This document shows positions 43,116 to 58,252 of a stretch of DNA of 64,000 nucleotides, piece after piece. The notes beneath the pieces are model-generated. The model was not told the DNA's origin. It searched no databases and saw only the letters and a list, made by a program, of their open reading frames with translations. A program made the translations under genes and the position numbers. Positions within the stretch are counted from its first letter, which is position 1; every line of letters starts with the position of its first letter. The DNA comes from Thermanaerovibrio acidaminovorans DSM 6589 (GTDB taxonomy: Bacteria; Synergistota; Synergistia; Synergistales; Synergistaceae): contig NC_013522.1 in the NCBI RefSeq assembly GCF_000024905.1, positions 930,001 through 994,000 on the forward strand, written 5' to 3'.

Positions 43116-44189
43116 TCACCTTTCCTCCGCCCCGGGCACCAGGTCCTTAGCCACCTTTGACAGGACCTCCTCCAGCTTATCCAGTGGCCAGTTGCCTATG
43201 GGCCTTCCCTCCACGAAGACGACGAAACCCGAGGTGGATCCCGCCACTCCAAGCTTGGCGGAGGCGGCCTCCCTGGGGCCGTTGACCTCGCACCCCATGA
43301 CCGCCACGGTGAACCCGTCGGGGATGCCCTTGAATCGGTCCATAACGGCCCGCACCCTGTCCACGTAGACCTTGACGTCCAATCGGCACCTGCCACAGGT
43401 GGGGCAGCTTATCCACTCTATCCCCCGGTGTCTCAACCCCAGGGCCCCCAATATCCGGTAGGCGGCCCTCACCTCGTGGACCCCCTCAGACGATAGGCTA
43501 ACCCTAACGGTGTCCCCTATCCCGGCGGACAGCATGATCCCTATGCCAACCGCGCTCTTGATAGCCCCCTCCTCCAGGGGCCCCGCCTCGGTTATCCCTA
43601 CGTGAAAGGGGAGCTGATACATGGAGGCCAGGATCTGGTTGGCCCTAACCGTCTCGGGTACGCTGGAGGATTTAGCGGAGACCACCACCCTGTCAAACCC
43701 CATCTCAAGGCACAGATCCACCTGCTCCCTAACCGCCGCCACCAGGGCCGCTACCCTGTCGCCCCCGCTCTGGGCCAGCTGGTGGTTGTTCAGGGAGCCC
43801 CCGTTGGCCCCTACCCGGATCACCACCCCCAAATCCATGGCCCGGCGGAGCACCGTCAGGAGGTTGTCCCTCCCCCCAAGGTTGCCCGGGTTGACCCGAA
43901 TGGCCTGACAACCCGCATCCATGGCGCTAAGGGCCAACCGATGATCGAAGTGTATATCCGCCATGATTGGGATCGATGATCCTGACACCAGCTCCCTCAA
44001 GCACCCCTCCAAGCCAGCGTCCCGATAGGAGGTCCTGACCAGCTCACAACCCTCCGCAACCAGTCCCTCGAGCTCCCGAAGACAGCCCTCCAGGTCCTCC
44101 AGGGGGGTCTTGAGCATGCTCTCCACCCTCACGGGAGCACCGCCTCCAACCGATAGCCCCCCTATGCTAACCCCATTGAGGCTAGCCAA
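43116..44189 (-). CDS. ispG: 4-hydroxy-3-methylbut-2-enyl diphosphate synthase
   Basis: 357 residues, the short bacterial GcpE form. TIM-barrel region with MADIHFDHRLAL and AIRVNPGNLG, then the [4Fe-4S] cysteines in ISCPTCGRCRLDV and MGCEVNGPREAASAKLG. It converts methylerythritol cyclodiphosphate to HMBPP. It is the last gene of the uppS-cdsA-dxr-rseP-ispG run, the classic order. Confidence 0.96.
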   Translation of the reverse strand: MASLNGVSIGGLSVGGGAPVRVESMLKTPLEDLEGCLRELEGLVAEGCELVRTSYRDAGLEGCLRELVSGSSIPIMADIHFDHRLALSAMDAGCQAIRVNPGNLGGRDNLLTVLRRAMDLGVVIRVGANGGSLNNHQLAQSGGDRVAALVAAVREQVDLCLEMGFDRVVVSAKSSSVPETVRANQILASMYQLPFHVGITEAGPLEEGAIKSAVGIGIMLSAGIGDTVRVSLSSEGVHEVRAAYRILGALGLRHRGIEWISCPTCGRCRLDVKVYVDRVRAVMDRFKGIPDGFTVAVMGCEVNGPREAASAKLGVAGSTSGFVVFVEGRPIGNWPLDKLEEVLSKVAKDLVPGAEER

Positions 44190-44201
44190 GCGAACACCCC
44201 C

Positions 44202-45230
44202 TCACCTAAGGCCAAACACTATCCGCTGCACATCCCGCCAGGTTATCCAAACCATCAGGGCCATCAAAAAGGCGAAACCCAGGTAGTGGATCATTCCCTC
44301 GTAGCGCTCCGGGATCCTCCTCCTGAAGACCAGCTCGAAGGCCACGAAGATCAGCCGGCCCCCATCAAGGGCCGGGAAGGGCAGCAGGTTCACCAGCCCC
44401 AGATGCAAGTTCAAAGCCGACAGGAAGGCCAGAAACTCCCAGAGACCCCTTCTGGCCACGTCCCCAGCCGCCACCGCTATCCCCACCGGCCCCGACACCT
44501 CCACTGGGTTTCGCCCCAAGGCCCAGTCCAGGATGCCCTTAACGATCCCAAACGCCAGGTTCACCGAGTACCGGTAGGCCCCTCTAAGGGCCTCCAAGGG
44601 GGTGTAGCGCCTCAACGAGGGTCTAACACCCAACAGATAAGCCCCCGAATCGTCCTTTCTAATCATCACGGTCTTGTATATCACCGTGCCCTCCCGTTCG
44701 ATCCCAAGGTACAGGGGACCCAAGGGGGCGTGACGGCGGATGGTCTTGGCCATGGAGCCCCAGTCCCCCACCCTAACGCCGTTCACCTCCACTATCCTAT
44801 CCCCAGGGGAGATCCCCACCTCCCTAGCCGGATATCCCTCCATGGTCTCCCCTATGACCGTGGAGCTGGTGTCCATAACCCCGTGAAAGTGAAGCACCAT
44901 GGCGGCCAGGGCGAAGGCTAACAGAACGTTGCAGAGGGCGCCGCTGACGAGGATGAAGGCCCGGGCAAGGGGCCCCTTGCCCTCGAAGGTATCCTCCCCT
45001 TGGGTCTGATCCCCCTCCATCCCGGCCAGCTTCACGAAGCCCCCTATGGGCACCACCCTCAGGGACCACTGGGTGCCAAGCCGCTCGACCGATAAGACCT
45101 TGGGGCCCATGCCCAGGGAGAACTCGTTGACCCTCACCCCCGAGAGCCTGGCGGCCCAGAAGTGCCCCAGCTCATGGATGAGCACGCTTATGGATATCAC
45201 CAAGAGGAACGAAAGAAGTGTGAAAACCAA
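44202..45230 (-). CDS. rseP: Site-2 zinc metalloprotease RseP
   Basis: 342 residues from TTG 45230, with GGAGGT seven bases upstream and one base after the dxr stop; an upstream in-frame GTG at 45254 lies within dxr. HELGHFWAARL is the membrane-embedded zinc site, a PDZ domain spans about residues 115-185, and NLLPFPALDGGRL carries the third ligand Asp. Members cut membrane-bound anti-sigma factors and signal-peptide remnants. No sigma-E/RseA genes are in the window. Confidence 0.94.
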   Translation of the reverse strand: MVFTLLSFLLVISISVLIHELGHFWAARLSGVRVNEFSLGMGPKVLSVERLGTQWSLRVVPIGGFVKLAGMEGDQTQGEDTFEGKGPLARAFILVSGALCNVLLAFALAAMVLHFHGVMDTSSTVIGETMEGYPAREVGISPGDRIVEVNGVRVGDWGSMAKTIRRHAPLGPLYLGIEREGTVIYKTVMIRKDDSGAYLLGVRPSLRRYTPLEALRGAYRYSVNLAFGIVKGILDWALGRNPVEVSGPVGIAVAAGDVARRGLWEFLAFLSALNLHLGLVNLLPFPALDGGRLIFVAFELVFRRRIPERYEGMIHYLGFAFLMALMVWITWRDVQRIVFGLR

Positions 45231-45231
45231 A

Positions 45232-46380
45232 TCAAAGACCTCCAAGCCTGGCACAAGCCCGGGATGCCATCTCCTTAGCCTCCTGAACCAGGGAGATGGA
45301 GTCCCCCACCGACGAGGGGGCGGACCCGCGGTAGGAACCCATTACCTCCTCTATCACGTCGGGGATCCTGTTAAACGGTATCCTGCCCAACAGGAAGCTC
45401 TCCACCGCCACCTCATCGGCCCCCACGAACAGGGCGGGATATGGACCGTCTTTTGTCCCCGCCTCCTTGGCCAGATAGAAGGCCCTAAACCTCTGGGGGT
45501 CCACCGGGGAGAAGGACAGATCCAGCTGTCCCAGCTCCAGGGGGGGTATCTCCTCTGCTATGGGCAACCTGTCTGGGTACGATAGGGCCATGGCGGCGGG
45601 AAGCCGCATGTCCGCCTGGGACACCAGCATCTTCCACGTTCCATCGGGGAAGAGCACCATCCCGTGAACCTGGGAGGTGGGGTGGATCACCGCATCCACC
45701 CTGTCCATGGGAAGCCCAAACAGCCTCATGGCCTCTATGCACTCTATGCCCTTGTTGGCCATGGTGGCGCTATCCACGGTTATCTTAGCCCCCATGGACC
45801 AGACCGGGTGCGCCAGGGCCTCCGCGGGGGTCACGTGCCTCAGCCTCTCCACCGGCATATCCCGGAAGGGACCGCCGGACGCGGTGAGCACGATCCTCTC
45901 GGGGCAAGCCTCCCCCATGAGGCACTGCCATATGGCGCTGTGCTCGCTGTCAACGGGCCTTATCTGATCCCTCTCCTTGGCCAGGGGGAGTATCCAGGGA
46001 CCCGCCACCACCAGGCTCTCCTTGTTGGCTATGGATACCGGGATGCCCATCCTGACCGCCAGCTCGAAATGGGGTATGCAGTCCGTGCCGGAGGCCAGGA
46101 ACGCCCAGTGGTCCACCTCCTCGTTGCGGATCATGTCCAGCAGGCCCCCTATCCCCCAGTAGGTGCGTCCCTGAAATGCACCGCCGGATCCGATCCCCTT
46201 CACCAGGCACGCGGCTGAGCAGCCAAGCTCCGCCGCCAGGGACGAGAGCTTGCCCCAGTTGCTACCCGACGCCACCGCCACCACCTTGAACCTGTCTGGG
46301 AAGAGGGAGCATACGCTGACGAAGGAGCTGCCCACGCTCCCGGTGGCCCCCACTATCCCGATCCTCAAAGGCCCGCTCAC
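45232..46380 (-). CDS. dxr: 1-deoxy-D-xylulose-5-phosphate reductoisomerase
   Basis: 382 residues from GTG 46380, with GGGGAG eight bases upstream. NADPH-binding GIVGATGSVGSS, NKESLVVAGPW, DSEHSAIWQCL, ASGGPFRD and GAKITVDSATMANKGIECI are the family motifs, including the metal-binding acidic residues and the flexible loop. It makes methylerythritol 4-phosphate from Dxs product. Overlapped or abutted by cdsA and rseP genes. Confidence 0.97.
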   Translation of the reverse strand: MSGPLRIGIVGATGSVGSSFVSVCSLFPDRFKVVAVASGSNWGKLSSLAAELGCSAACLVKGIGSGGAFQGRTYWGIGGLLDMIRNEEVDHWAFLASGTDCIPHFELAVRMGIPVSIANKESLVVAGPWILPLAKERDQIRPVDSEHSAIWQCLMGEACPERIVLTASGGPFRDMPVERLRHVTPAEALAHPVWSMGAKITVDSATMANKGIECIEAMRLFGLPMDRVDAVIHPTSQVHGMVLFPDGTWKMLVSQADMRLPAAMALSYPDRLPIAEEIPPLELGQLDLSFSPVDPQRFRAFYLAKEAGTKDGPYPALFVGADEVAVESFLLGRIPFNRIPDVIEEVMGSYRGSAPSSVGDSISLVQEAKEMASRACARLGGL

Positions 46381-46384
46381 TGGA

Positions 46385-47218
46385 CTATCTCCCCAGAACC
46401 TCAAAGATTATGAACGCCAGGGAGGAGTTGACCAGAATGCTGTCGAACCGGTCCAGGAAACCCCCGTGCCCGGGGATCAGGGATCCGCTGTCCTTGACCC
46501 CCGCCTCTCGCTTGAGCACCGACTCACCCAGATCCCCCAACTGCCCCGCGAAGCCGCACAGAAGGCCCAAGAGAAGTAGCGGCAAGGGGGGGAACTCGAA
46601 GATAAGCGCCACCAGGGACGAGGCGAAGACGCTGCCCAATACGCCGCCCCCGAAGCCCTCCCAGGTCTTCTTGGCGCTCACCTTGTCGCAAAGGCTGTAC
46701 CTTCCCCATATGCTGCCCACGAAATAGGCGGTAACGTCGCAGAACCAGGTGCAGAGGAAGATGGTGAGCACGAAGAGGCGCCCCCAGGTGTGCTCCCTCA
46801 GCAATATCAGGAAACACCAGGGCAGCACCACGTACGCCACCCCCGCCAGGGTGCCACCTATGTTGGCCAGGGCATCGCTCTGCCCCGTGTTCTGCCGCCT
46901 CAGCACCTCGACGAAAAGGACCATGAAGGCAAGAAGGGATATGACCGCCAGGATGGAGGAGAGGCTGAGCCCCACCGAGGCGGCCCACAACATGGTTAGC
47001 CCCGCCAGCAACCCCATCCCCCTGGACATGGAGTACCTGGAGGAGAGCAACACGTAAAACTCCCACAGGGAGACCATGGCCACCGCGGAGGCCACCAGGC
47101 GCCAATACCAGCCCCCCACGTAGAGGGATGACAGAACCACGGACACCAGGACCACGCTGCTTACGCTCCTGAGCGCCAGGTTGCCAGTGAAGTTACCCTT
47201 AAACCTTGACACCTCCAT
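46385..47218 (-). CDS. cdsA: Phosphatidate cytidylyltransferase
   Basis: 277 residues, integral membrane with about seven or eight hydrophobic segments. The CdsA signature is in SAKKTWEGFGGGVLGS and KDSGSLIPGHGGFLDRFDS. It makes CDP-diacylglycerol for phospholipid synthesis. It overlaps uppS by 20 bases; the uppS-cdsA-dxr-rseP order is conserved in many bacteria. Confidence 0.96.
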   Translation of the reverse strand: MEVSRFKGNFTGNLALRSVSSVVLVSVVLSSLYVGGWYWRLVASAVAMVSLWEFYVLLSSRYSMSRGMGLLAGLTMLWAASVGLSLSSILAVISLLAFMVLFVEVLRRQNTGQSDALANIGGTLAGVAYVVLPWCFLILLREHTWGRLFVLTIFLCTWFCDVTAYFVGSIWGRYSLCDKVSAKKTWEGFGGGVLGSVFASSLVALIFEFPPLPLLLLGLLCGFAGQLGDLGESVLKREAGVKDSGSLIPGHGGFLDRFDSILVNSSLAFIIFEVLGR

Positions 47219-47915
47219 AACGCCTATCCCTCCTGACGTAGTCCATCACCGCTTCCACCAGGTCATCCCGATCGAAGTCGGGCCAGTACTTGGGGGAGAA
47301 GTACAGCTCACTGTAAGCACACTGGAAGAGCCAGAAGTTGCTTATCCTCATCTCACCACCGGTCCTGATGATCAGGTCCGGATCCGGCAGGTCCGGAAGG
47401 TAGAGGAACCGTCGGAAGGTCTCCTCGTCCAGATCCTGCACCCCATCTCTCACGGCTTTGCCCACCGCATCCAGGATCTCCCTCCTGCCCCCGTAGTTGA
47501 GGCACACCACCAGGGTTATGTCCGAGCAGTGACGGGTCTCCTGCTCCCCGTAGGCCATTATCTCCCTCACGTCATCGGGTAGCCCATCGGCACTGCCGGC
47601 GAAGAGAAGACGCCCTCCCTCCTCCCTTAACTGCCGAACCTTCATCTTGATGTAGTAGCGGAAGAGGCCCATGAGCCCCCCCACCTCTCCCCTGCCCCTC
47701 TTCCAGTTCTCGGAGGAGAAGGCGTACAGGGAAAGGTACCTTATGCCCAGATCCTTTGCGGCCCTCACCGCCACCTCCACCTTCTTGACCCCCGCATGGT
47801 GACCCATTATCCTGGGAAGTCCCCTCTCCTGGGCCCACCGGCCGTTGCCGTCCATTATGATCCCCACGTGGGAGGGGACCCGGTCCATCATATCCTCCGA
47901 AAGCGAGAGACCCAA
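47199..47915 (-). CDS. uppS: Undecaprenyl diphosphate synthase (cis-prenyltransferase)
   Basis: 238 residues from TTG 47915; an ATG at 47888 with GGAGG close by is a possible alternative. IIMDGNGRWAQERGLPRIMGH carries the catalytic Asp and phosphate-binding residues; AFSSENWKR and RTGGEMRISNFWLFQCAYSE are further signatures. It extends farnesyl diphosphate to the C55 lipid used by MurA-dependent peptidoglycan synthesis and the wecA-like enzyme encoded upstream. Confidence 0.96.
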   Translation of the reverse strand: MGLSLSEDMMDRVPSHVGIIMDGNGRWAQERGLPRIMGHHAGVKKVEVAVRAAKDLGIRYLSLYAFSSENWKRGRGEVGGLMGLFRYYIKMKVRQLREEGGRLLFAGSADGLPDDVREIMAYGEQETRHCSDITLVVCLNYGGRREILDAVGKAVRDGVQDLDEETFRRFLYLPDLPDPDLIIRTGGEMRISNFWLFQCAYSELYFSPKYWPDFDRDDLVEAVMDYVRRDRRYGGVKV

Positions 47916-47919
47916 CCCA

Positions 47920-48543
47920 TCACCCCCTTACGGAATCCCAGCGACGCTTTACCTCCTGGATGTCCTCCCAGGTGAGATGCTTGGGACTGCCCACCTTGTT
48001 GGAGGGGTTCCTCAGGAGGTAGCTGGGGTGGAACATGGGCATAACCTCCATTCCCCTCCACTGAAACCACTGCCCCCTCAGCTTCGATATGGCCTCCTGG
48101 GTTTTGAGTATCCACTTCGTTGGGGTGCTACCCAGCAGGACCAGTAGCCTGGGGCGGACCAGGAGGATCTGGGCCTGAAGGAACTGATCGCAGGCCATCA
48201 TCTCCTCGTATGTGGGGACCCTATTCCCCGGGGGCCTGCACTTGACCACGTTGGTTATGTAGACCTGATCCCTCGATATGCCCGCAGCGGACAGGATCTG
48301 GGTCAAAAGCTGACCAGCCCTGCCCACGAAGGGGACCCCCTGCTGATCCTCATCCGCCCCTGGCCCCTCACCTACAAACATAAGGCCCCCCTCCAGCACC
48401 CCCTCGCCAAAAACTACGTTGGTCCTGGAGGAACACAGACCACACCGTTCACAGGATAGGGCTCTGTTGCGGATCTGTTCCAACATTAGGGACCGATCCT
48501 CAAGACTCAACGGTTCCCCCAACGACGGTATATCCATTTTCAA
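47920..48543 (-). CDS. Family 4 uracil-DNA glycosylase (4Fe-4S)
   Basis: 207 residues, beginning at TTG 48543 or ATG 48537 and overlapping the upstream gene by 4 bases. CERCGLCSSRTNVVFGEG provides two cluster cysteines and FVGEGPGADEDQQGVPFVG the catalytic loop. NVVKCRPPGNR and a later HPS motif (MFHPSYLLR) complete the family pattern. It excises uracil from DNA and is often found in thermophiles. Confidence 0.93.
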   Translation of the reverse strand: MKMDIPSLGEPLSLEDRSLMLEQIRNRALSCERCGLCSSRTNVVFGEGVLEGGLMFVGEGPGADEDQQGVPFVGRAGQLLTQILSAAGISRDQVYITNVVKCRPPGNRVPTYEEMMACDQFLQAQILLVRPRLLVLLGSTPTKWILKTQEAISKLRGQWFQWRGMEVMPMFHPSYLLRNPSNKVGSPKHLTWEDIQEVKRRWDSVRG

Positions 48544-49376
48544 AAAAACACCTCGCTGACGTTGATATCGAACTGGGATATCTCTATTCCGGTGAAGTAG
48601 CGAACGCCCAGTATTACTCTGCGCTTCACCTGGGAGATGACCTCAAGGAAAGTCCTCCCACCTGGAGTCAACCCAAGATCCAGGACAACCGATATGCGGT
48701 CATCGTCGCCGGGCTTGACCCGAACCTGACATACCTTGGATACCTGGGGGGTGAGAAGGGCTATGTGGGTTATCATCTGACCCACAGCCTGGGGCTCTAT
48801 GTGTAGGGCGCCGATGAAGTTAAAGGGAGGACGAACTATGGTCTTTTCCCCCTCGTAGGACTCCCCCTGGGACCGCCAAAGAACCTTCAGCCGCCCAACC
48901 AGCTTGCCGGCGAAGTCCCGCCTCACCTGAACGTGAGACACGGGGATAACGTGCTGCCCCTTGCCTCGGCGTTCCCTCTTGGCCTTGGCTATCTCCTCCG
49001 GGGTGGAAACCTCCTCGATCCTAACGATCCTTTGAGGACGGCTCAACCCAAGCCTGGAGGCTATCTTCATGGCCATCCCATCGGAGGTGGCGATTATCAT
49101 TATCCCCGTGGGGGGGATCTGGGCAAAGAAGGATGCCACCGCGAGCCGATGATCCTCGAACTCGAACATGGCCCGTCTTATGGCCTTGACCTGGTTCCTC
49201 TCCGTCTTGGCGCTCCTGCCACAGACTATCTGACCTCGTCTCACCACCAGGCCATCGTCTATGATGTACTCCGCCCCCAGGTTGGCCGCCACCATCTGGG
49301 CCCGCTGGCTCTTGCCCGTGCCAGCGGGGCCCACGAAGGCGAAGACCGCATGAAGGGGCCTGTTGTCCTCTGCCAC
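48540..49376 (-). CDS. P-loop ATPase fused to an Asp23-like C-terminal domain (uncharacterised)
   Basis: 278 residues from GTG 49376, with GGGAGG upstream. VGPAGTGKSQRAQMVA is a Walker A loop, and IMIIATSDGMAMKIASRLGL sits where a Walker B strand would be. The C-terminal 75 residues resemble Asp23/Gls24 folds: a beta-beta-alpha-beta pattern ending VKRRVILGVRYFTGIEIS then VNV-like VSEVFF. No transmembrane segment is visible. It lies between hisC and a DNA glycosylase gene. Neither substrate nor partner is known; the Asp23 resemblance is by eye. Confidence 0.65.
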   Translation of the reverse strand: MAEDNRPLHAVFAFVGPAGTGKSQRAQMVAANLGAEYIIDDGLVVRRGQIVCGRSAKTERNQVKAIRRAMFEFEDHRLAVASFFAQIPPTGIMIIATSDGMAMKIASRLGLSRPQRIVRIEEVSTPEEIAKAKRERRGKGQHVIPVSHVQVRRDFAGKLVGRLKVLWRSQGESYEGEKTIVRPPFNFIGALHIEPQAVGQMITHIALLTPQVSKVCQVRVKPGDDDRISVVLDLGLTPGGRTFLEVISQVKRRVILGVRYFTGIEISQFDINVSEVFF

Positions 49377-49382
49377 CCTAAG

Positions 49383-50495
49383 TTACCTCCCAATCCGCCT
49401 GAGCACCCGGTCCAGCTCGGATAGAAACCTGTCGTTCTCCTCCGGAAGCCCTATGGTGACCCGGAGGGTGCCTTTAAGCCCTAGATCCTCCCCTAGGCGA
49501 ACGATGACCCCGTTAAGCAGAAGCCCCTCGTAGGTCTCCTCCGCCCTTGGAACCTCAAGCAACAGGAAGTTGGCGTGGGTGTCGTGAACCCTGATCCCAA
49601 GGCCTGAGAGGGCCTTGTGAACCCTCCGCCTCTCCGCTATGGTCATGTCCCTCACCTTGGCTACGTGGTCTCCACACCCCAATGCGGCCAGTGCTGCCCT
49701 CTGACCAACTGAGTTGACCGAGAAAACCCTCCGAACCTTACCGAAGGCCTCGATTATCACCTTGGGCCCTATGGCATACCCAATCCGGAGGCCCGCAAGG
49801 CCGTATATCTTGGAGAAGGTCCTCAATATCACCACGTTGCTGGCCTGCCTGAACAGGTCCGCCCCGCACACGTAGCGGGGGTCCGTCACGTACTCCGCGT
49901 AGGCCTCATCCACTATCAGGAGGACGTGTCTCTCCTCCAGGCGGACCGCCAGGTTCAGGAGGTCCTTGCCTGGCACTATGTTGCCCGTGGGGTTGTTGGG
50001 GTTGCACAGCACCACTGCCTTGGTCCTGGGACCGCACATCTGGAGCACCCCATCCACCGGCAGGGAGAAGTCCTCCAAAAGCGGCACCGGATCGCACACC
50101 CCACCGGCGGCGGATGCGGTCAGCTTGTAGACCGGGTAGGTGGGGCTGGGGACAATGATGTGATCCCCCTCCTCCAGGATCGACTGGAAAAGGGTGCATA
50201 GGACCCCCTCGGTGCCCCCTCCCACCGCCACCTCGAGGGGGGATACCCCCAAATGCCTGGCTATGGCCCTCTTGAGGTTGTAAGCCTCCGGATCCGGGTA
50301 CCTGTTGATCCCATCCTTGGCGGCCGCTATGGCCTCCATCACCGCCTGCGGAAGGGGCCAGGGGTTCTCGTTGGAACACAACCTTACAACCTCCGTAAGC
50401 CCGTAGGTTCTGGTTATCTCCTCCATGGGCTTACCGGGCCTATAGGGTTCTACGGAGCTCAGGTATCTCCTCGGCACCTCGTCCATCCAAGACAT
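49383..50495 (-). CDS. hisC: Histidinol-phosphate aminotransferase family protein
   Basis: 370 residues, fold type I PLP enzyme. LCSNENPWPLPQAV, CNPNNPTGNIVPG, DEAYAEYV and RTFSKIYGLAGLRIGY (Schiff-base Lys in SK) match HisC. No other histidine-biosynthesis genes are in the window and the organism appears to degrade histidine, so a general aromatic or phenylalanine aminotransferase activity is possible. ATG with GGGAGGG upstream. Confidence 0.88.
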   Translation of the reverse strand: MSWMDEVPRRYLSSVEPYRPGKPMEEITRTYGLTEVVRLCSNENPWPLPQAVMEAIAAAKDGINRYPDPEAYNLKRAIARHLGVSPLEVAVGGGTEGVLCTLFQSILEEGDHIIVPSPTYPVYKLTASAAGGVCDPVPLLEDFSLPVDGVLQMCGPRTKAVVLCNPNNPTGNIVPGKDLLNLAVRLEERHVLLIVDEAYAEYVTDPRYVCGADLFRQASNVVILRTFSKIYGLAGLRIGYAIGPKVIIEAFGKVRRVFSVNSVGQRAALAALGCGDHVAKVRDMTIAERRRVHKALSGLGIRVHDTHANFLLLEVPRAEETYEGLLLNGVIVRLGEDLGLKGTLRVTIGLPEENDRFLSELDRVLRRIGR

Positions 50496-50545: not shown

Positions 50546-51838
50546 TCACTCCCCCCGGGTCACTATCACCTTGCCACCCAGGGCCCTCAGCTTCTCCACT
50601 ATTCCCTCGTAACCCCGCCAGATGTGCTCCAGATCGCACACCACCGTCTCATCCTCCGCCGCCAGTCCCATCAGAACTAGGGCAGCCCCCGCCCGTAGGT
50701 CCGACGCATGAACCTCCGCACCAACCAGCTTGGATACCCCGGTAACGATGGCGGTGTTGCCCTGCAGATCCACCTGAGCTCCCATTCGCTTGAACTCGCT
50801 CACATGTAGGAAACGGGACTCGAACACGCTCTCATGAATGACGCTGGTTCCCTCCGCCAAGCACATGGCGGCCATTATCTGGGGCTGAAGGTCCGTTGGG
50901 AAGCCGGGATAGGGAAGGGTCTTCAGCGACACCCCCCGATACCTCCCACTGGGATACACGGTGACGTCATCTCCCTTTATCTCCACCGATATGCCCGCCT
51001 CCTCCAACTTGGAACACAGGGCCTCTATGTGTTCCGGAACGATCTGGCGGACGGTCACCTTCCCCCCGGTTATCACCCCCGCCAGGAGATAGGTGCTGGC
51101 CTCTATCCTGTCGGGGATCACGCTCACGTGGGCGTCCTTGAGCTCCTTTGCCCCCCTTATCTTTATGGTGCCGGAACCCTCGCCCTCTATCTCCACCCCC
51201 ATGGCCCTCAAGGTTTCCGCCAGGTTTACCACCTCGGGCTCCCGGGCGGCGTTCTCCAGGATGGTCTCCCCCTCAACCAGGGAGGCGGCCATCATAAGGT
51301 TCTCGGTGGCCCCCACGGATGGGAAGTCCAGGTATATCCTGGCGGGCTTGAGACCCGACGTGCGGCCGTGAAAGGCCCCCTGAACGAGCTCGAAGGAGGT
51401 GCCCATCTTGGCGAGCCCCTTAACATGAAAGTCTATGGGACGGCTGCCTATGGCACATCCCCCCGGCAGGGGCAACACCGCCCTGCCGCATCGGGCCACC
51501 AAGGGTCCCAAGACCAGGGAGGAGGCCCTCATCTTCCTGACCAGCGAGGCGGGGGTCTCCCATGAGATCTCCTCCGGAACGTCCAATGTCATCCGGTGAT
51601 CCTTCATCTCCACCTTTACACCCAGGTGATCCAGGAGATCCATCATGGTGTGGATGTCCTGAAGATCGGGTACACGCTCTATGGTGAGCCTACCGCCCCT
51701 CAAGAGGAGGGCGGAGGCCATTATCGGCAACGCCGCGTTCTTGGCACCCTGAGCGGTGAGGACCCCTTTAAGAGGCTCCCCTCCCCTTATTACAAGCCTC
51801 TCCTTCTTACCCTCCGAAACCAAATCCACGCTACTCAT
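50546..51838 (-). CDS. murA: UDP-N-acetylglucosamine 1-carboxyvinyltransferase
   Basis: 430 residues from ATG 51838, with GGAGG upstream. It catalyses the first committed step of peptidoglycan synthesis. GAKNAALPIMASALL and PLPGGCAIGSRPIDFHVKGL are diagnostic, the latter with the catalytic Cys that fosfomycin alkylates, so this enzyme should be fosfomycin-sensitive. Followed by wecB and the wecA-like gene upstream in the operon. Confidence 0.97.
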   Translation of the reverse strand: MSSVDLVSEGKKERLVIRGGEPLKGVLTAQGAKNAALPIMASALLLRGGRLTIERVPDLQDIHTMMDLLDHLGVKVEMKDHRMTLDVPEEISWETPASLVRKMRASSLVLGPLVARCGRAVLPLPGGCAIGSRPIDFHVKGLAKMGTSFELVQGAFHGRTSGLKPARIYLDFPSVGATENLMMAASLVEGETILENAAREPEVVNLAETLRAMGVEIEGEGSGTIKIRGAKELKDAHVSVIPDRIEASTYLLAGVITGGKVTVRQIVPEHIEALCSKLEEAGISVEIKGDDVTVYPSGRYRGVSLKTLPYPGFPTDLQPQIMAAMCLAEGTSVIHESVFESRFLHVSEFKRMGAQVDLQGNTAIVTGVSKLVGAEVHASDLRAGAALVLMGLAAEDETVVCDLEHIWRGYEGIVEKLRALGGKVIVTRGE

Positions 51839-51858
51839 CAAAAAACCTCCAAACCGAT

Positions 51859-52974
51859 CTAGTTCTTACGCCTATCGATCAAATACGACTCAAGGGCTTC
51901 CGCTATCCGGGCCGAGGCCCGTCCGTCACCGAACGGCGAGGCCACTGCTGGGGCGGGAAGCTCCCCGTTGAGGACCCTCATAGCGGTGGACACGATCCTA
52001 TCCCTGGAGGTGCCCACCAGGAAACCGTAACCGCTGTCCAAAACCTCGGGCCTCTCGGTCACGTCCCTCAATATGAGCACCCGCTTGCGAAGCCCCGAGG
52101 CCTCCTCCTGAACCCCTCCGCTGTCGCTAAGGATGAAGAGGCACCGGTCCATGGCCCACACGAAGTCCGGGTAGTCCAAGGGATCACACAGAACCGCCCG
52201 GTCCTCCCCTCCCAATATCTCCATCCAGACAGACCTAACGTCCGGGTTGCGGTGCATGGGGATAAGGGCCTTCAGATCCCTCCTGACGCCCAACAGGTCC
52301 CTCACCGACAGGGCTATCTCCCTCAAGGGGGCCCCCCAGGACTCCCTCCGATGGGCGGTAACCAGTATGAAGGGACCGTCCCCTACAGCCCCTATGGCCT
52401 TTGAGGGGGAGGACACGTGATCCCTCATCCAAAGGAGAGCATCTATGACCGTGTTGCCCGTCACCAAGATGCTCCCCTCCCGGATGCCGTCCGCTACAAG
52501 GTTCCGCCGGGCACCTTCGGTGGGTGCGAAGTGAAGGGACGATATCCGATCGGTGAAAACCCGGTTCATCTCCTCCGGGAATGGTCGCCTCATATCGCCG
52601 CTCCGGAGCCCCGCCTCCACATGACCAACCGGCACGTCCCGATAGAAGGCCGCCAGGGCGGACGCCATGGTGGTGGTGGTGTCCCCGTGGACCAGCACCG
52701 CGGCGGGGCGGCAATCGTCCAGGAAGTCCCCCACCCCCTGAAGGACCGCGGAGGTGACGTAATCCAGGGACTGCCTCTCCCGCATTATGCCCAGGTCCGC
52801 GTGAGGGGTGAGCTGGAAGGGGGCCAGGGCCTGGTACAGCATCTGGGAGTGCTGTCCCGTGGCCAGGAGCACCACGTCGAAGCTCCCCCTCTCCCTCAAT
52901 GCGATCACCACCGGGGCCATCTTTATGGCCTCGGGCCTGGTGCCTACAACGCAAACCACCTTCAGCCTATCCAA
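51859..52974 (-). CDS. wecB: UDP-N-acetylglucosamine 2-epimerase (non-hydrolysing)
   Basis: 371 residues from TTG 52974 with AGGAG about six bases upstream. VVGTRPEAIKMAPVV, VHGDTTTTMASALAAF, GHVEAGLRSGD and FPEEMNRVFTDRIS are family signatures. It interconverts UDP-GlcNAc and UDP-ManNAc for surface polysaccharides. The adjoining wecA-like gene suggests a shared glycan pathway. Confidence 0.96.
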   Translation of the reverse strand: MDRLKVVCVVGTRPEAIKMAPVVIALRERGSFDVVLLATGQHSQMLYQALAPFQLTPHADLGIMRERQSLDYVTSAVLQGVGDFLDDCRPAAVLVHGDTTTTMASALAAFYRDVPVGHVEAGLRSGDMRRPFPEEMNRVFTDRISSLHFAPTEGARRNLVADGIREGSILVTGNTVIDALLWMRDHVSSPSKAIGAVGDGPFILVTAHRRESWGAPLREIALSVRDLLGVRRDLKALIPMHRNPDVRSVWMEILGGEDRAVLCDPLDYPDFVWAMDRCLFILSDSGGVQEEASGLRKRVLILRDVTERPEVLDSGYGFLVGTSRDRIVSTAMRVLNGELPAPAVASPFGDGRASARIAEALESYLIDRRKN

Positions 52975-53011: not shown

Positions 53012-53905
53012 TCAACCTCCCCAGGAACCAAGAGCCTTGACCCCTGCCAAGAGCAGCAGACAGTGGAAAGCAGCCAGAATCGCCAGCACCTTCTCCTTTC
53101 TAATTCCCCTATCGAGAAGCCTGTGATGCCCATGGGTCCTATCGGGAAGAAACGGTGACCTCCTCTTAATGATCCTGCCGGTCATGACAACCAGGGTGTC
53201 CAGGACAGGGAGCCCCCCTAGTAGGAAAAGCACCAACATGAGTCTCAATATGCCCATGGATGCCATGGGTTCCCACGCGTTCCATAGGATGAGCGCCCCG
53301 CAAAGATACCCCAGGAGAGTGCTTCCTCCATCCCCCAGGAATGTCTTGGCTTTGGGGAAGTTCCAGAGCATGACACCCAGCACCAGCCCAGCGGTGAGGG
53401 CCCACGGGAAGGGACCGAAGGTCACCGCACAGAAGCCCATGGTGATAAGCGCCATGGAGAGGCACAGGCCGTCCATCCCATCCACCAGGTTGAACGCGTT
53501 GGTCAGCCCGGTTATCCAGATCACCGAGGCAATCCGGTGCAGTAGGGGCAAGTCCAAGGGATATATGGCCCCGTACGAGGCGGCCAGATGAACCAGGAAC
53601 CTCACCGATGGGGACAGGGAGCTCATGTCGTCCAGGTAGCCCACAAGGAAGACCACCGTGGCACCGGTGGCAACGAAGGGGACAAAGCGCCCCTCATCCC
53701 CGAAGAGCAGGAAGATCAACAAAAGCCCCATCCACAACACTATCCCAGCCCCCCGGGGGGTCACCGAGCTGTGCTGCTTCCTGCCCCCGGGAACGTCCAG
53801 AAGGCGGAATCGCCTGGCCAGTGCCATGGAGAGGGGAACCGCCACGAAGGCCCCCAACATGGCCCCCAGGGCCCTCAGCAGGTGGCTCCAAATGTCACCT
53901 CCCAT
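53012..53905 (-). CDS. WecA/MraY-family undecaprenyl-phosphate GlcNAc-1-phosphate transferase
   Basis: 297 residues, with roughly nine hydrophobic segments. GYLDDMSSLSP (Mg-binding DD), NAFNLVDGMDGLC, FLGDGGSTLLGY and DRTHGHHRLLD define the prenyl-sugar transferase family. DGHHxHH-like C-terminal motif favours the WecA/TagO branch over MraY. It starts glycan assembly on undecaprenyl phosphate, acting with WecB. It is shorter than E. coli WecA. Confidence 0.9.
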   Translation of the reverse strand: MGGDIWSHLLRALGAMLGAFVAVPLSMALARRFRLLDVPGGRKQHSSVTPRGAGIVLWMGLLLIFLLFGDEGRFVPFVATGATVVFLVGYLDDMSSLSPSVRFLVHLAASYGAIYPLDLPLLHRIASVIWITGLTNAFNLVDGMDGLCLSMALITMGFCAVTFGPFPWALTAGLVLGVMLWNFPKAKTFLGDGGSTLLGYLCGALILWNAWEPMASMGILRLMLVLFLLGGLPVLDTLVVMTGRIIKRRSPFLPDRTHGHHRLLDRGIRKEKVLAILAAFHCLLLLAGVKALGSWGG

Positions 53906-53914
53906 GGGTTGTAA

Positions 53915-55057
<1,143 letters not shown>

Positions 55058-56198: not shown

Positions 56199-58019
56199 CT
56201 AGCGGAAGGCGGCGGGGAAGAAGGGCATCCACTCCCTGAAGCTATAGTCCTCCGCGTCCACGAAGAGGGATACCAGGGAGTCCGACACGTTGCCCAGCGG
56301 CACGTCCACCTTGGGCAATGGCATCCGGAAGGTCCACTCCACCCCGTCCAGGGGAGTCAGTGCGGGCTTTGCCCGGAAATACAAGCTTCCTCCGGTAAGG
56401 CGCCTCACCGCGTCCAGCTCCGGCGACGATGGGACACCTATGGCAGCCACATCCAGCCTGAGGCCGTTCATCAGACAGTAGGCCAGCAACCTCTCCTGGT
56501 CCCTTCGCCCCAACCGGACGTTCGAGTTGAGGAGAAGGACCTGAGGCAAGGACATCCCCTTCTCCTCCCTGGCGCGTATATCCCGCCACAGACGGGATGG
56601 ATCCCCGTCGGGGCTCTCCAAGGCCACCACCTGGGGCTCCGGGATCAGCCTCCTGCTGCCGCTCACCGACACCAGCGCCAGCTTGTTCTGCCAAACCCCC
56701 CTGACCACCGGGAACCTGTCCCCTATGGAGGCGAAAAAGGGGGAGAGCCGGGACGTCATGGTGAGGCTGTAAACATCCCCCTCATCTATGGCCATGTCCA
56801 TAACCCCGAAAAGGCCGTTGACCGCCCCATCGTTGTAGATCAGGCCGCCCCAGAGGGGCTGACGCCCTCCCTGGTCTAGCAGCATGATGCCCCCCTGGTA
56901 GGTGCATACGGTCCACGGATCCTTGAGCCCCCTGGCCACCGTATCCAGCGTAACGGTCCCATCCCAGAGGGGACCCACCTTGAACAGGGCCCCGCCCTCG
57001 GCCACCACGAAGAGCCCCCCCTCGTGGTTCCAAGTTAGGTCCCTGACGCCATTGACCCGGACGTTGGCCACCTCCTTGAAGGAGGATCCCCCCGTCCAGT
57101 CCAGCACGTAGACCATCCCGCGCCCCCGGTCCGCCACCGCCAGGCGGCTCCCCAGGGAGTCCACCGCCACCAGCTCGGGCAACCTCCCGGATCCCTTGGG
57201 CCGCCATTGCCCCATTACCCGGCCCCCGGATGATAGGATCAGCAGGCTCCCGGATATCCGGTCCGTGACTGCGAAGGCCCCATCGGAGAGAGCCACCCCA
57301 TCTGAGATGTGCCCATCGTGTTTGAAGTACGGCCATTGGGATATGGCGCCGCTGTACTGGTTCTCCTCCACCCTAAAGGCCCCACCATCGGAGGAGAGGA
57401 CCACCCAATTGAGGTAGTCCAGCGGCACCACCGCCACCGGAGACTTGATGGCCAGGGACGCCAGCCTCTTGCCTCCCCGGTAGATCACTACCCGGTCCCC
57501 CAGGCTGTCCACCAGGAAGAGCTTGTCCCCCAGGGAGCTCACCTTCCCAGCCCCCCCCATGCCCAGGATAAAGGTCCTGTCCAATTTGGGAAGAACGCTG
57601 CCATCCCGGGCGTCCACGAACGTGGCGGACAGCATGGACGCCTTGGGTCGAAGGGCCAGTCTCAAAGACCTGATCTCGTCCTCCAGGGATCGGAGGATCG
57701 ACTTGCCCCGGTAGTCGTTCCTCCTAACCTCCAGGTAGCTCCTTAAGGATGCGGCGGCGTCGTCCAGGTTGCCCATCCTCCTCTGGACCACAGACCGGAG
57801 GAAGTAGAGGTCCACGAAGTACGTGTCCTTCTTCAGCGCACCGGATATGTTGGCCAGGGAGCTCCAATACCTGCGGCCCAGCAGGTCCCGGTAAGCCATC
57901 ATGAAAATGACTTCCGATGCCCGCCGATCCGCCTTGGGCATCTCCTGGGCACCCACCCCCAAACATAGCAAGAGGACCCATATGATGACCCCCGCCGCTA
58001 CCGCCACCCACCTCCTCAT
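56199..58019 (-). CDS. Secreted protein with TPR-like and beta-propeller regions (uncharacterised)
   Basis: 606 residues from ATG 58019, overlapping the upstream stop as ATGA. A signal peptide (WVAVAAGVIIWVLLLCLGVGA) leads into a helical TPR-like part (about 30-115), then a region of repeated strands such as LVDSLGDRVVIYRGGK, AVDSLGSRLAVADRGRG and GGLFVVAEGGALFKV typical of NHL/beta-propeller proteins (about 130-430). The final 150 residues have a Rossmann-like pattern (PQVLLLNSN, LRLDVAAIGVP) resembling part of a VWA domain. No function is assigned. It forms a unit with the two small membrane proteins upstream. Confidence 0.75.
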   Translation of the reverse strand: MRRWVAVAAGVIIWVLLLCLGVGAQEMPKADRRASEVIFMMAYRDLLGRRYWSSLANISGALKKDTYFVDLYFLRSVVQRRMGNLDDAAASLRSYLEVRRNDYRGKSILRSLEDEIRSLRLALRPKASMLSATFVDARDGSVLPKLDRTFILGMGGAGKVSSLGDKLFLVDSLGDRVVIYRGGKRLASLAIKSPVAVVPLDYLNWVVLSSDGGAFRVEENQYSGAISQWPYFKHDGHISDGVALSDGAFAVTDRISGSLLILSSGGRVMGQWRPKGSGRLPELVAVDSLGSRLAVADRGRGMVYVLDWTGGSSFKEVANVRVNGVRDLTWNHEGGLFVVAEGGALFKVGPLWDGTVTLDTVARGLKDPWTVCTYQGGIMLLDQGGRQPLWGGLIYNDGAVNGLFGVMDMAIDEGDVYSLTMTSRLSPFFASIGDRFPVVRGVWQNKLALVSVSGSRRLIPEPQVVALESPDGDPSRLWRDIRAREEKGMSLPQVLLLNSNVRLGRRDQERLLAYCLMNGLRLDVAAIGVPSSPELDAVRRLTGGSLYFRAKPALTPLDGVEWTFRMPLPKVDVPLGNVSDSLVSLFVDAEDYSFREWMPFFPAAFR

Positions 58020-58252
58020 GGCAGGATCTCTTTCCCCACGAAGGAGTAGAAGGTGAGGGTGATCGCCCCCGCCAGGAGGAAACCCAGCAACATCCTGAGG
58101 TAGAAGAGGACCGCCGGCCCCCCGGGCCACCTTCCCCGGTATATGTTGACCACCGCCCTGGCCACCGGGAGGGCCAGCAGGAAGAAGACCAGCCCCAGGA
58201 GGGCCTGACGGTTCAAAACGCTAACATCCCTCAAGAACGACAAAGACAGCAC
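58016..58252 (-). CDS. Small two-helix membrane protein (uncharacterised)
   Basis: 78 residues from GTG 58252. Two hydrophobic helices (about 16-36 and 52-70) with a short basic loop YRGRWPGG between them. No family recognised. It starts 1 base after the previous gene's stop and its own stop overlaps the ATG of the secreted propeller gene, so the three are almost certainly co-translated. Confidence 0.7.
   Translation of the reverse strand: MLSLSFLRDVSVLNRQALLGLVFFLLALPVARAVVNIYRGRWPGGPAVLFYLRMLLGFLLAGAITLTFYSFVGKEILP

Follow-up and report, generated by a model that had tools for sequence, protein, structure and literature searches.

Genomic context and gene organization

The window considered here, namely the whole stretch of 64,000 nucleotides that was analysed, comprises bases 930001-994000 of the single-contig genome (1,848,474 bases) of Thermanaerovibrio acidaminovorans DSM 6589, a member of the phylum Synergistota. 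An open reading frame on its minus strand (48540-49376), with exactly the bounds given in the initial annotation, begins with GTG and encodes a protein of 278 amino acids, which, as judged from its sequence, consists of a P-loop domain and a complete Asp23 domain that meet at approximately residue 186. The joining of two such domains, proposed in that annotation, is supported by a conserved Walker A motif and by profile homology to Asp23. The start of this fusion gene lies six bases from the end of a hisC-like gene, and its stop codon shares bases with the TTG listed as the beginning of the downstream uracil-DNA glycosylase gene (which we take to be of family 4), an overlap that disappears if an ATG two codons further in is used. 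The short 5' gap and the overlapping stop place the fusion gene within an operon-like run (Table 1), for which the names murA, cdsA, rseP, and TagO/WecA are assumed by us for the PF00275, PF01148, PF02163/PDZ, and PF00953 neighbours, respectively.

Table 1. Features of the fusion gene and of its neighbours, in window coordinates
Feature	Position	Strand	Basis
P-loop/Asp23 fusion gene	48540..49376	-	ORF, GTG start; found in 175/185 phylum genomes
N-terminal P-loop domain and conserved C-terminal extension, about residues 10-185	48822..49349	-	Alignment, conservation, models
Walker A GPAGTGKS, residues 16-23	49308..49331	-	G16, G19-S23 invariant, 124/124
D40-D41-G42, end of strand 2; candidate Mg/catalytic acids (putative role)	49251..49259	-	124/124
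R136...H142..P145, lid-like segment after helix 126-139 (putative lid)	48942..48971	-	122/122 with a letter there
Asp23 domain, residues 186-278	48543..48821	-	Pfam and profile-profile matches; confident part of model
Uracil-DNA glycosylase (UDG superfamily)	47920..48543	-	PF03167, 136.7 bits; next downstream in 119/124 genomes
uppS, undecaprenyl diphosphate synthase	47199..47915	-	PF01255
cdsA-like CTP transferase	46385..47218	-	PF01148
dxr, DXP reductoisomerase	45232..46404	-	PF08436, PF13288, PF02670
RseP-like M50 protease with PDZ	44202..45254	-	PF02163 and PDZ
ispG (GcpE)	43116..44189	-	PF04551
hisC-like aminotransferase, separating murA from the fusion gene in some genomes only	49383..50495	-	PF00155; 17/124 genomes
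murA-like enzyme, EPSP-synthase family	50546..51841	-	PF00275; upstream in 122/124
wecB, UDP-GlcNAc 2-epimerase	51859..52974	-	PF02350
TagO/WecA-like glycosyl transferase family 4	53012..53905	-	PF00953

The C-terminal Asp23 domain

Asp23 is a cell-envelope stress module that is usually found alone. Searched singly against Pfam, the window protein reaches only 18 bits with the Asp23 model PF03780 (cut-off 28; E 0.0039; residues 204-276), so that a single-sequence search by itself leaves the assignment open. At the level of the family, the Pfam search by which the initial annotation had proposed to check the domain gave a clear result: all 28 members of alignment A1, the window protein among them, match PF03780 at E ≤ 1 (best 5.7e-12), and the cut-off is exceeded by a member of family f12 (46.4 bits), a member of family f11 (37.1 bits), and a relative from Bacillota (29.8 bits). 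Furthermore, when the profile of the C-terminal 93 residues was compared by hhalign with that of stand-alone Asp23 from Synergistota, 90 of its 92 columns aligned to positions 2-109 of the latter (E 2.8e-12, probability 97.6). As controls, the profile of the N-terminal half reached E 0.4, and 50 profiles with shuffled columns did no better than E 0.015. Such a full-length alignment, with weakly scoring controls, indicates a whole Asp23 domain rather than a fragment. The Asp23-like C-terminus first seen in the sequence is therefore real by family profile and profile-profile comparison, its length being 93 residues instead of the approximately 75 initially estimated.

Pairwise identity within the Asp23 part averages 30% among the 28 members, with a minimum of 11%. 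In an AlphaFold2 model based on five sequences, residues 201-278 have pLDDT values of 78-93 (by tens of residues), and a fold search with the model of this part found the C-terminal domain of the CDF transporter family, represented by MamM (Z 12.9, rmsd 2.0, 78 residues aligned). The CDF-like arrangement covers residues 193-278 (48543-48800) as a predicted domain. In the model, this likeness appears to be that of a shared small alpha/beta arrangement, and no function is drawn from it. A sequence search for a solved Asp23 structure gave no convincing match (best E 0.062).

The N-terminal P-loop domain

The Walker A consensus GxxxxGK[ST] is present in 124 of 124 Synergistota genomes, with G16, G19, T20, G21, K22, and S23 constant in all of them, an invariance of six positions that is not due to chance and bears out the unambiguous motif reported initially. 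Besides Walker A, 22 listed positions from D40 to G189 show no variation: D40-G42, G53, S55, K57, and E59 (124/124 genomes); I66, R68, H76, T97, S98, and M101 (all 123 genomes with a letter there); and I129, R136, H142, P145, G157, V181, P183, F185, and G189 (all 122 with a letter there). Together with Walker A, these positions indicate an active site under strong constraint. Pairwise identity in the P-loop part averages 57% (minimum 41%) among the 28 members, and the acids conserved in at least 90% of them are D40, D41, E59, D75, E128, E135, and E177. A Walker B motif (hhhhDE) was sought on strand 3 (residues 91-96), where no conserved acid occurs and invariant T97-S98 follow.

Assignment of this domain to a family is less straightforward. 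The window protein matches AAA_33, presumably a P-loop kinase-like family, with 19.6 bits over residues 11-138 (cut-off 27). Among the 28 members, the P-loop half matches AAA in 23, AAA_33 in 20, ABC_tran in 18, AAA_22 in 16, cytidylate kinase in nine, the gluconokinase and MiaA models in eight each, and IPT in five, all of these matches being mixed and below curated cut-offs; the P-loop clan search suggested at the outset thus found AAA, AAA_33, and ABC_tran, none of them above its threshold. In the window protein the AAA match (PF00004) is confined to residues 14-46, and the ABC_tran match also reaches residue 113. When solved structures were searched by sequence, AAA+ proteins (Cdc48, ClpX) ranked at the top, aligned over the P-loop only (approximately residues 15-45), followed by cytidylate kinases. 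Neither the conserved motif SAKxE (55-59) nor the segment that runs between HVIPV (142) and RPPFSF (187) was matched to a known family in these searches.

The five-sequence AlphaFold2 model of the whole protein gives pLDDT 66-86 at residues 11-50 and 71-120, and 27-58 at 51-70 and 121-190; modelled alone, also from five sequences, the N-terminal part reaches 76-93 at 11-50 and 81-130, with a mean of 67 and poor values after 140. Foldseek searches with this N-terminal model gave weak matches, headed by shikimate kinase (E 7.4e-3), with gluconate kinase at E 0.017, a designed P-loop protein ranking between the two, and AAA+ proteins (CbbX and a subunit of a clamp loader among them) close behind the kinases (E 0.045). 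The similarly weak matches of VIA were to Clp1, polynucleotide kinases, and adenylate kinases (Z at most 6.5, rmsd 4.0, 126 residues aligned). Of the initial term "ATPase", the conserved P-loop stands, whereas there is no conserved Walker B acid and the nearest folds are mostly small kinases, if weakly so; the term is best kept as a putative label. An AAA+ identity was set aside, since there is no Walker B acid and the window protein matches such proteins only over the P-loop. The models point weakly to a kinase-like domain, which we do not call a kinase.

Distribution in Synergistota and beyond

The fusion gene was found in 175 of 185 Synergistota genomes, including all 115 good ones (completeness of 90% or more, contamination of 5% or less), and in a family-level survey it occurred in 50 of 52 genomes, 28 of 28 good ones among them. 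All ten genomes that lack it are less than 90% complete. In six genomes in which the fusion gene is missing or truncated (G045, G069, G074, G106, G128, and G155) the glycosylase gene is absent too, as would be expected had the assembly missed the locus. Eight genomes list two matches, and of the two inspected, one has a second match to the P-loop only (G062) and the other a gene split by unread bases (G088). The fusion gene is therefore a core gene of Synergistota.

Whole-genome searches were centred on Synergistota, and a contig scan, which reaches close relatives, returned four loci, all from this phylum. One relative was found outside it, WP_158648977.1 of Monoglobus pectinilyticus (Bacillota), which shares 31.6% identity over 95% with the window protein (E 2e-37) and is annotated as "Asp23/Gls24 family envelope stress response protein"; there is thus at least one public record in which the two-domain protein already bears the Asp23 family name. 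In a protein tree the Monoglobus protein groups with family f12 (support 92/84), but its branch is very long, so that no direction of transfer is drawn. The idea of a Clostridium thermocellum copy beside rex, at Cthe_0421, was dropped, since Cthe_0420 is called dipicolinate synthase in the one paper found.

Mobile elements and defence systems were also searched. Among 72,556 plasmid records the window protein matches one and the Monoglobus protein finds only itself; phage records gave two matches at E 8, for the Monoglobus protein and not for the window protein. Viral contigs, searched with the window protein and with alignment A3, contained no relative, and a viral origin was rejected on this ground. 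Members of alignment A1 match PHROGs only above E 1e-5 (best 2e-5, to a family of unknown function), and those matches of the window protein lie over the P-loop. An anti-phage system was likewise rejected, as PADLOC matches reach only E 0.033-0.044 and again fall over the P-loop.

Conserved gene neighbourhood

The usual gene order, in stretches of up to 16 kb, is (TagO/WecA-like)-wecB-murA-(hisC)-fusion-udg-uppS-cdsA-dxr-rseP-ispG, with the fusion gene co-oriented with murA, uppS, cdsA, dxr, rseP, and ispG, and the same order holds in the distant family f11. Across 124 distinct genomes, murA lies upstream in 122 (105 directly and 17 behind hisC, with one other gene and one contig end), and the uracil-DNA glycosylase gene lies immediately downstream in 119 (with four other genes and one contig end), counts that do not represent independent events because the cluster is inherited as a block. 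The initial remark that the neighbours give no function is thus contradicted by a conserved envelope-precursor cluster, in which hisC is an occasional guest.

In all four genomes where another gene follows, the fusion gene is still accompanied by murA and the glycosylase gene is found elsewhere, in two of them still before uppS or cdsA. One of these genomes (G150) carries a convergent HhH-GPD base-excision gene (L102, 7520-8206, plus strand) that ends five bases from the fusion gene, perhaps by chance; it was rejected as a glycosylase partner, given that the other three exceptions carry pgm, a malate/lactate dehydrogenase-like gene, and pth (named by eye). Family f12 is represented by a single genome (G056; 82% complete, 290 contigs), which keeps the fusion-glycosylase pair behind an operon resembling acyl-CoA dehydratase activase, with wecB-murA on another contig; here the fusion gene is preceded not by murA but by a gene for a BadF/BcrA-type ATPase and a pair of DUF2229-like genes, the match of one being just under cut-off (L087, 1434-4509, minus strand). 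In Monoglobus the order is rex-fusion-glycosylase, where the glycosylase is of the OGG type (OGG_N and HhH-GPD) and its gene overlaps the fusion gene. A fair reading is that the envelope cluster is the strong signal at the level of the phylum and that one example from another phylum repeats the link to a glycosylase.

Two further genes of the window lie near the cluster. A 370-residue reading frame (53915-55027, minus strand) joins an RpiB-type ribose/galactose isomerase (PF02502, residues 5-143) to a uracil phosphoribosyltransferase (PF14681, residues 167-369); this rpiB-upp fusion has a match in many of the compared loci, with a stop-to-stop frame of approximately 1.1-1.2 kb, and may be phylum-wide. 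A 643-residue frame (56199-58130, minus strand) has no Pfam match at 1e-5, and its relatives (23-51% identity) in certain other genomes are located upstream of rpiB-upp or of a meaB-like gene.

Stand-alone Asp23 proteins and membrane attachment

Asp23 proteins are widespread and abundant. PF03780 exceeds its cut-off in 172 of 183 genomes, a few of which may owe this to the fusion itself, and in 44 of 60 genomes the whole-protein profile also hits an Asp23 gene distinct from the fusion (E ≤ 0.001; one contig-end fragment left out). The present genome has such a stand-alone gene besides the fusion.

The model of the membrane anchor AmaP (NF033218) is matched over its C-terminal half (positions 84-166 of 166) by 20 of 28 members at E ≤ 0.1, with scores of 16.5-29 bits when members are scanned singly, under the cut-off of 55. 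AmaP probably holds Asp23 through an Asp23-like domain of its own. Hydropathy revealed no transmembrane stretch in the four of 28 members inspected (highest 19-residue value 1.13-1.69), from which it follows that membrane association would need a partner.

A gene between the stand-alone asp23 and a nusB-like gene (L001, 867-1346, minus strand) encodes a 159-residue protein that has no Pfam match, is hydrophobic from approximately residue 122, and has a relative in 24 of 30 loci. Its N-terminal part compares to the fused Asp23 domain with E 4.8e-4 (probability 32%) and to stand-alone Asp23 with E 0.053, a weak hint that this membrane protein may possibly be an AmaP equivalent.

In the literature on S. 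aureus, Asp23 is described as attached to the membrane via AmaP and as forming filaments, and loss of either protein as inducing the cell-wall stress response (PMC6954212). The Asp23 protein YqhY is proposed to be an inhibitor of acetyl-CoA carboxylase (PMC5437119) and is reported to be essential in C. difficile (PMC12548448).

Proposed function and alternative explanations

A membrane-associated regulator, as suggested in the initial annotation, remains our best guess. Specifically, the fusion protein may be a cytosolic nucleotide-dependent switch that uses its Asp23 domain to dock on the membrane scaffold of Asp23 and tunes the supply of envelope precursors, a tentative reading to which we give a probability of roughly one in three. 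The P-loop domain would bind ATP through K22, S23, and D40/D41, and the R136-H142-P145 segment would close over the bound ATP as a lid; closure in the ATP-bound state would change the faster-evolving Asp23 domain, which would dock on stand-alone Asp23 and its membrane partner. The nucleotide state could then report the cellular energy or nucleotide-sugar level to MurA, UppS, and CdsA, in which case the fusion would not be a structural stress protein but would control envelope supply as a nucleotide switch. This proposal draws on retention of the gene in 115 of 115 good genomes together with the invariant residues of the nucleotide site; on Asp23 homology, the AmaP-model match, and the co-occurrence of Asp23 in the same genomes; on a neighbourhood devoted to envelope precursor synthesis; and on the published membrane attachment of Asp23/AmaP and the YqhY proposal (PMC6954212, PMC5437119). 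Counting against it, the low identity of the Asp23 part (30%, minimum 11%) makes a precise docking surface not evident.

The same P-loop could instead belong to a small-molecule kinase acting on a nucleotide sugar, a lipid precursor, or a nucleotide, with the Asp23 domain serving only for oligomerization or localization. This reading is doubtful: AAA_33 is matched by 20 of the 28 members, along with the cytidylate kinase, IPT, gluconokinase, and MiaA models, shikimate and gluconate kinases head the fold search, and the flanking enzymes handle UDP-GlcNAc and undecaprenyl phosphate, yet the matches are mixed, all under curated cut-offs, and shared with AAA, ABC_tran, and AAA_22. The acids D40-D41 at the end of strand 2, with no Walker B acid on strand 3, may suit a kinase. 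AAA+ chains (Cdc48, ClpX), however, top the solved structures by sequence, with CbbX and the clamp loader subunit near in the fold search, the VIA Z score is at most 6.5, and no particular site can be proposed for a substrate. That the fusion remodels Asp23 assemblies, as a true ATPase motor or in the manner of AAA+ proteins, is a long shot. Asp23 is reported to form filaments (PMC6954212), which the fused domain could enter, and AAA is the P-loop family matched most widely (23/28), with AAA+ chains leading the structure search; these similarities, however, cover just residues 14-46 and approximately 15-45, respectively, there is no conserved Walker B acid, and the protein would seem small for an AAA+ module plus lid.

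The envelope idea leaves the DNA glycosylase neighbour unexplained, which in both the f12 genome and the Bacillota relative accompanies the fusion gene away from murA. A role in base-excision DNA repair, with the fusion as a polynucleotide- or nucleotide-kinase-like P-loop partner of the adjoining glycosylase, would account for this pairing, for the direct downstream position of the glycosylase in 119 of 124 genomes (with an overlap in the present genome, provided that the TTG is the correct start), and for the overlapping gene of a different glycosylase type in Monoglobus, and polynucleotide kinases are among the fold look-alikes (VIA Z at most 6.5). We nevertheless regard it as unlikely: four of 124 genomes keep murA with no glycosylase gene next in the operon and the glycosylase elsewhere, the pairing away from murA comes from one Bacillota example and one incomplete f12 genome, the G150 gene may be there by chance while the other three exceptions have unrelated neighbours, and no type of kinase can be named from fold scores this low. 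Asp23 domains are also not known to have a role with DNA. The probability left after the switch, kinase, repair, and remodeller readings falls to none of these.

A more elaborate idea, which we consider improbable, is that the fusion enters membrane-held Asp23 assemblies and that its P-loop cycle builds, caps, or releases them, coupling energy or UDP-GlcNAc status to wall and lipid precursor synthesis. Were this so, a nucleotide-controlled Asp23 scaffold would exist throughout the phylum Synergistota, as well as in one or more lineages of Bacillota. A natural P-loop fusion would also offer a handle on the job of Asp23, predicting that its function can be tied to a nucleotide cycle. The fusion gene marks a core gene of an entire phylum without prior characterization, and a search of open-licence literature found no paper that describes Asp23 joined to a P-loop or ATPase domain.

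Comparison with known systems

Small P-loop kinases (shikimate, gluconate, cytidylate, and polynucleotide kinases) have in common with the fusion the P-loop and the acids after strand 2, but the fusion has no match to them above a curated cut-off. The Monoglobus protein WP_158648977.1 has the same two-domain architecture, whereas its gene neighbours, rex and the OGG-type glycosylase, differ from those in Synergistota. With the Asp23/Gls24 family (PF03780; S. aureus Asp23, B. subtilis YqhY, and YloU) the fusion shares the entire Asp23 domain, with G.h.I at its start and TG..V..V.V at its end, while differing in the attached P-loop domain; within the domain alignment, the sole clear difference is that the fusion does without an insert of approximately 15 residues found in stand-alone Asp23. 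The stand-alone gene of this genome sits between efp and nusB (named by eye), and the fusion gene is located elsewhere. The AmaP anchor (NF033218) has an Asp23-like C-terminal domain in common with the fusion, which carries a P-loop domain where AmaP has its membrane segment.
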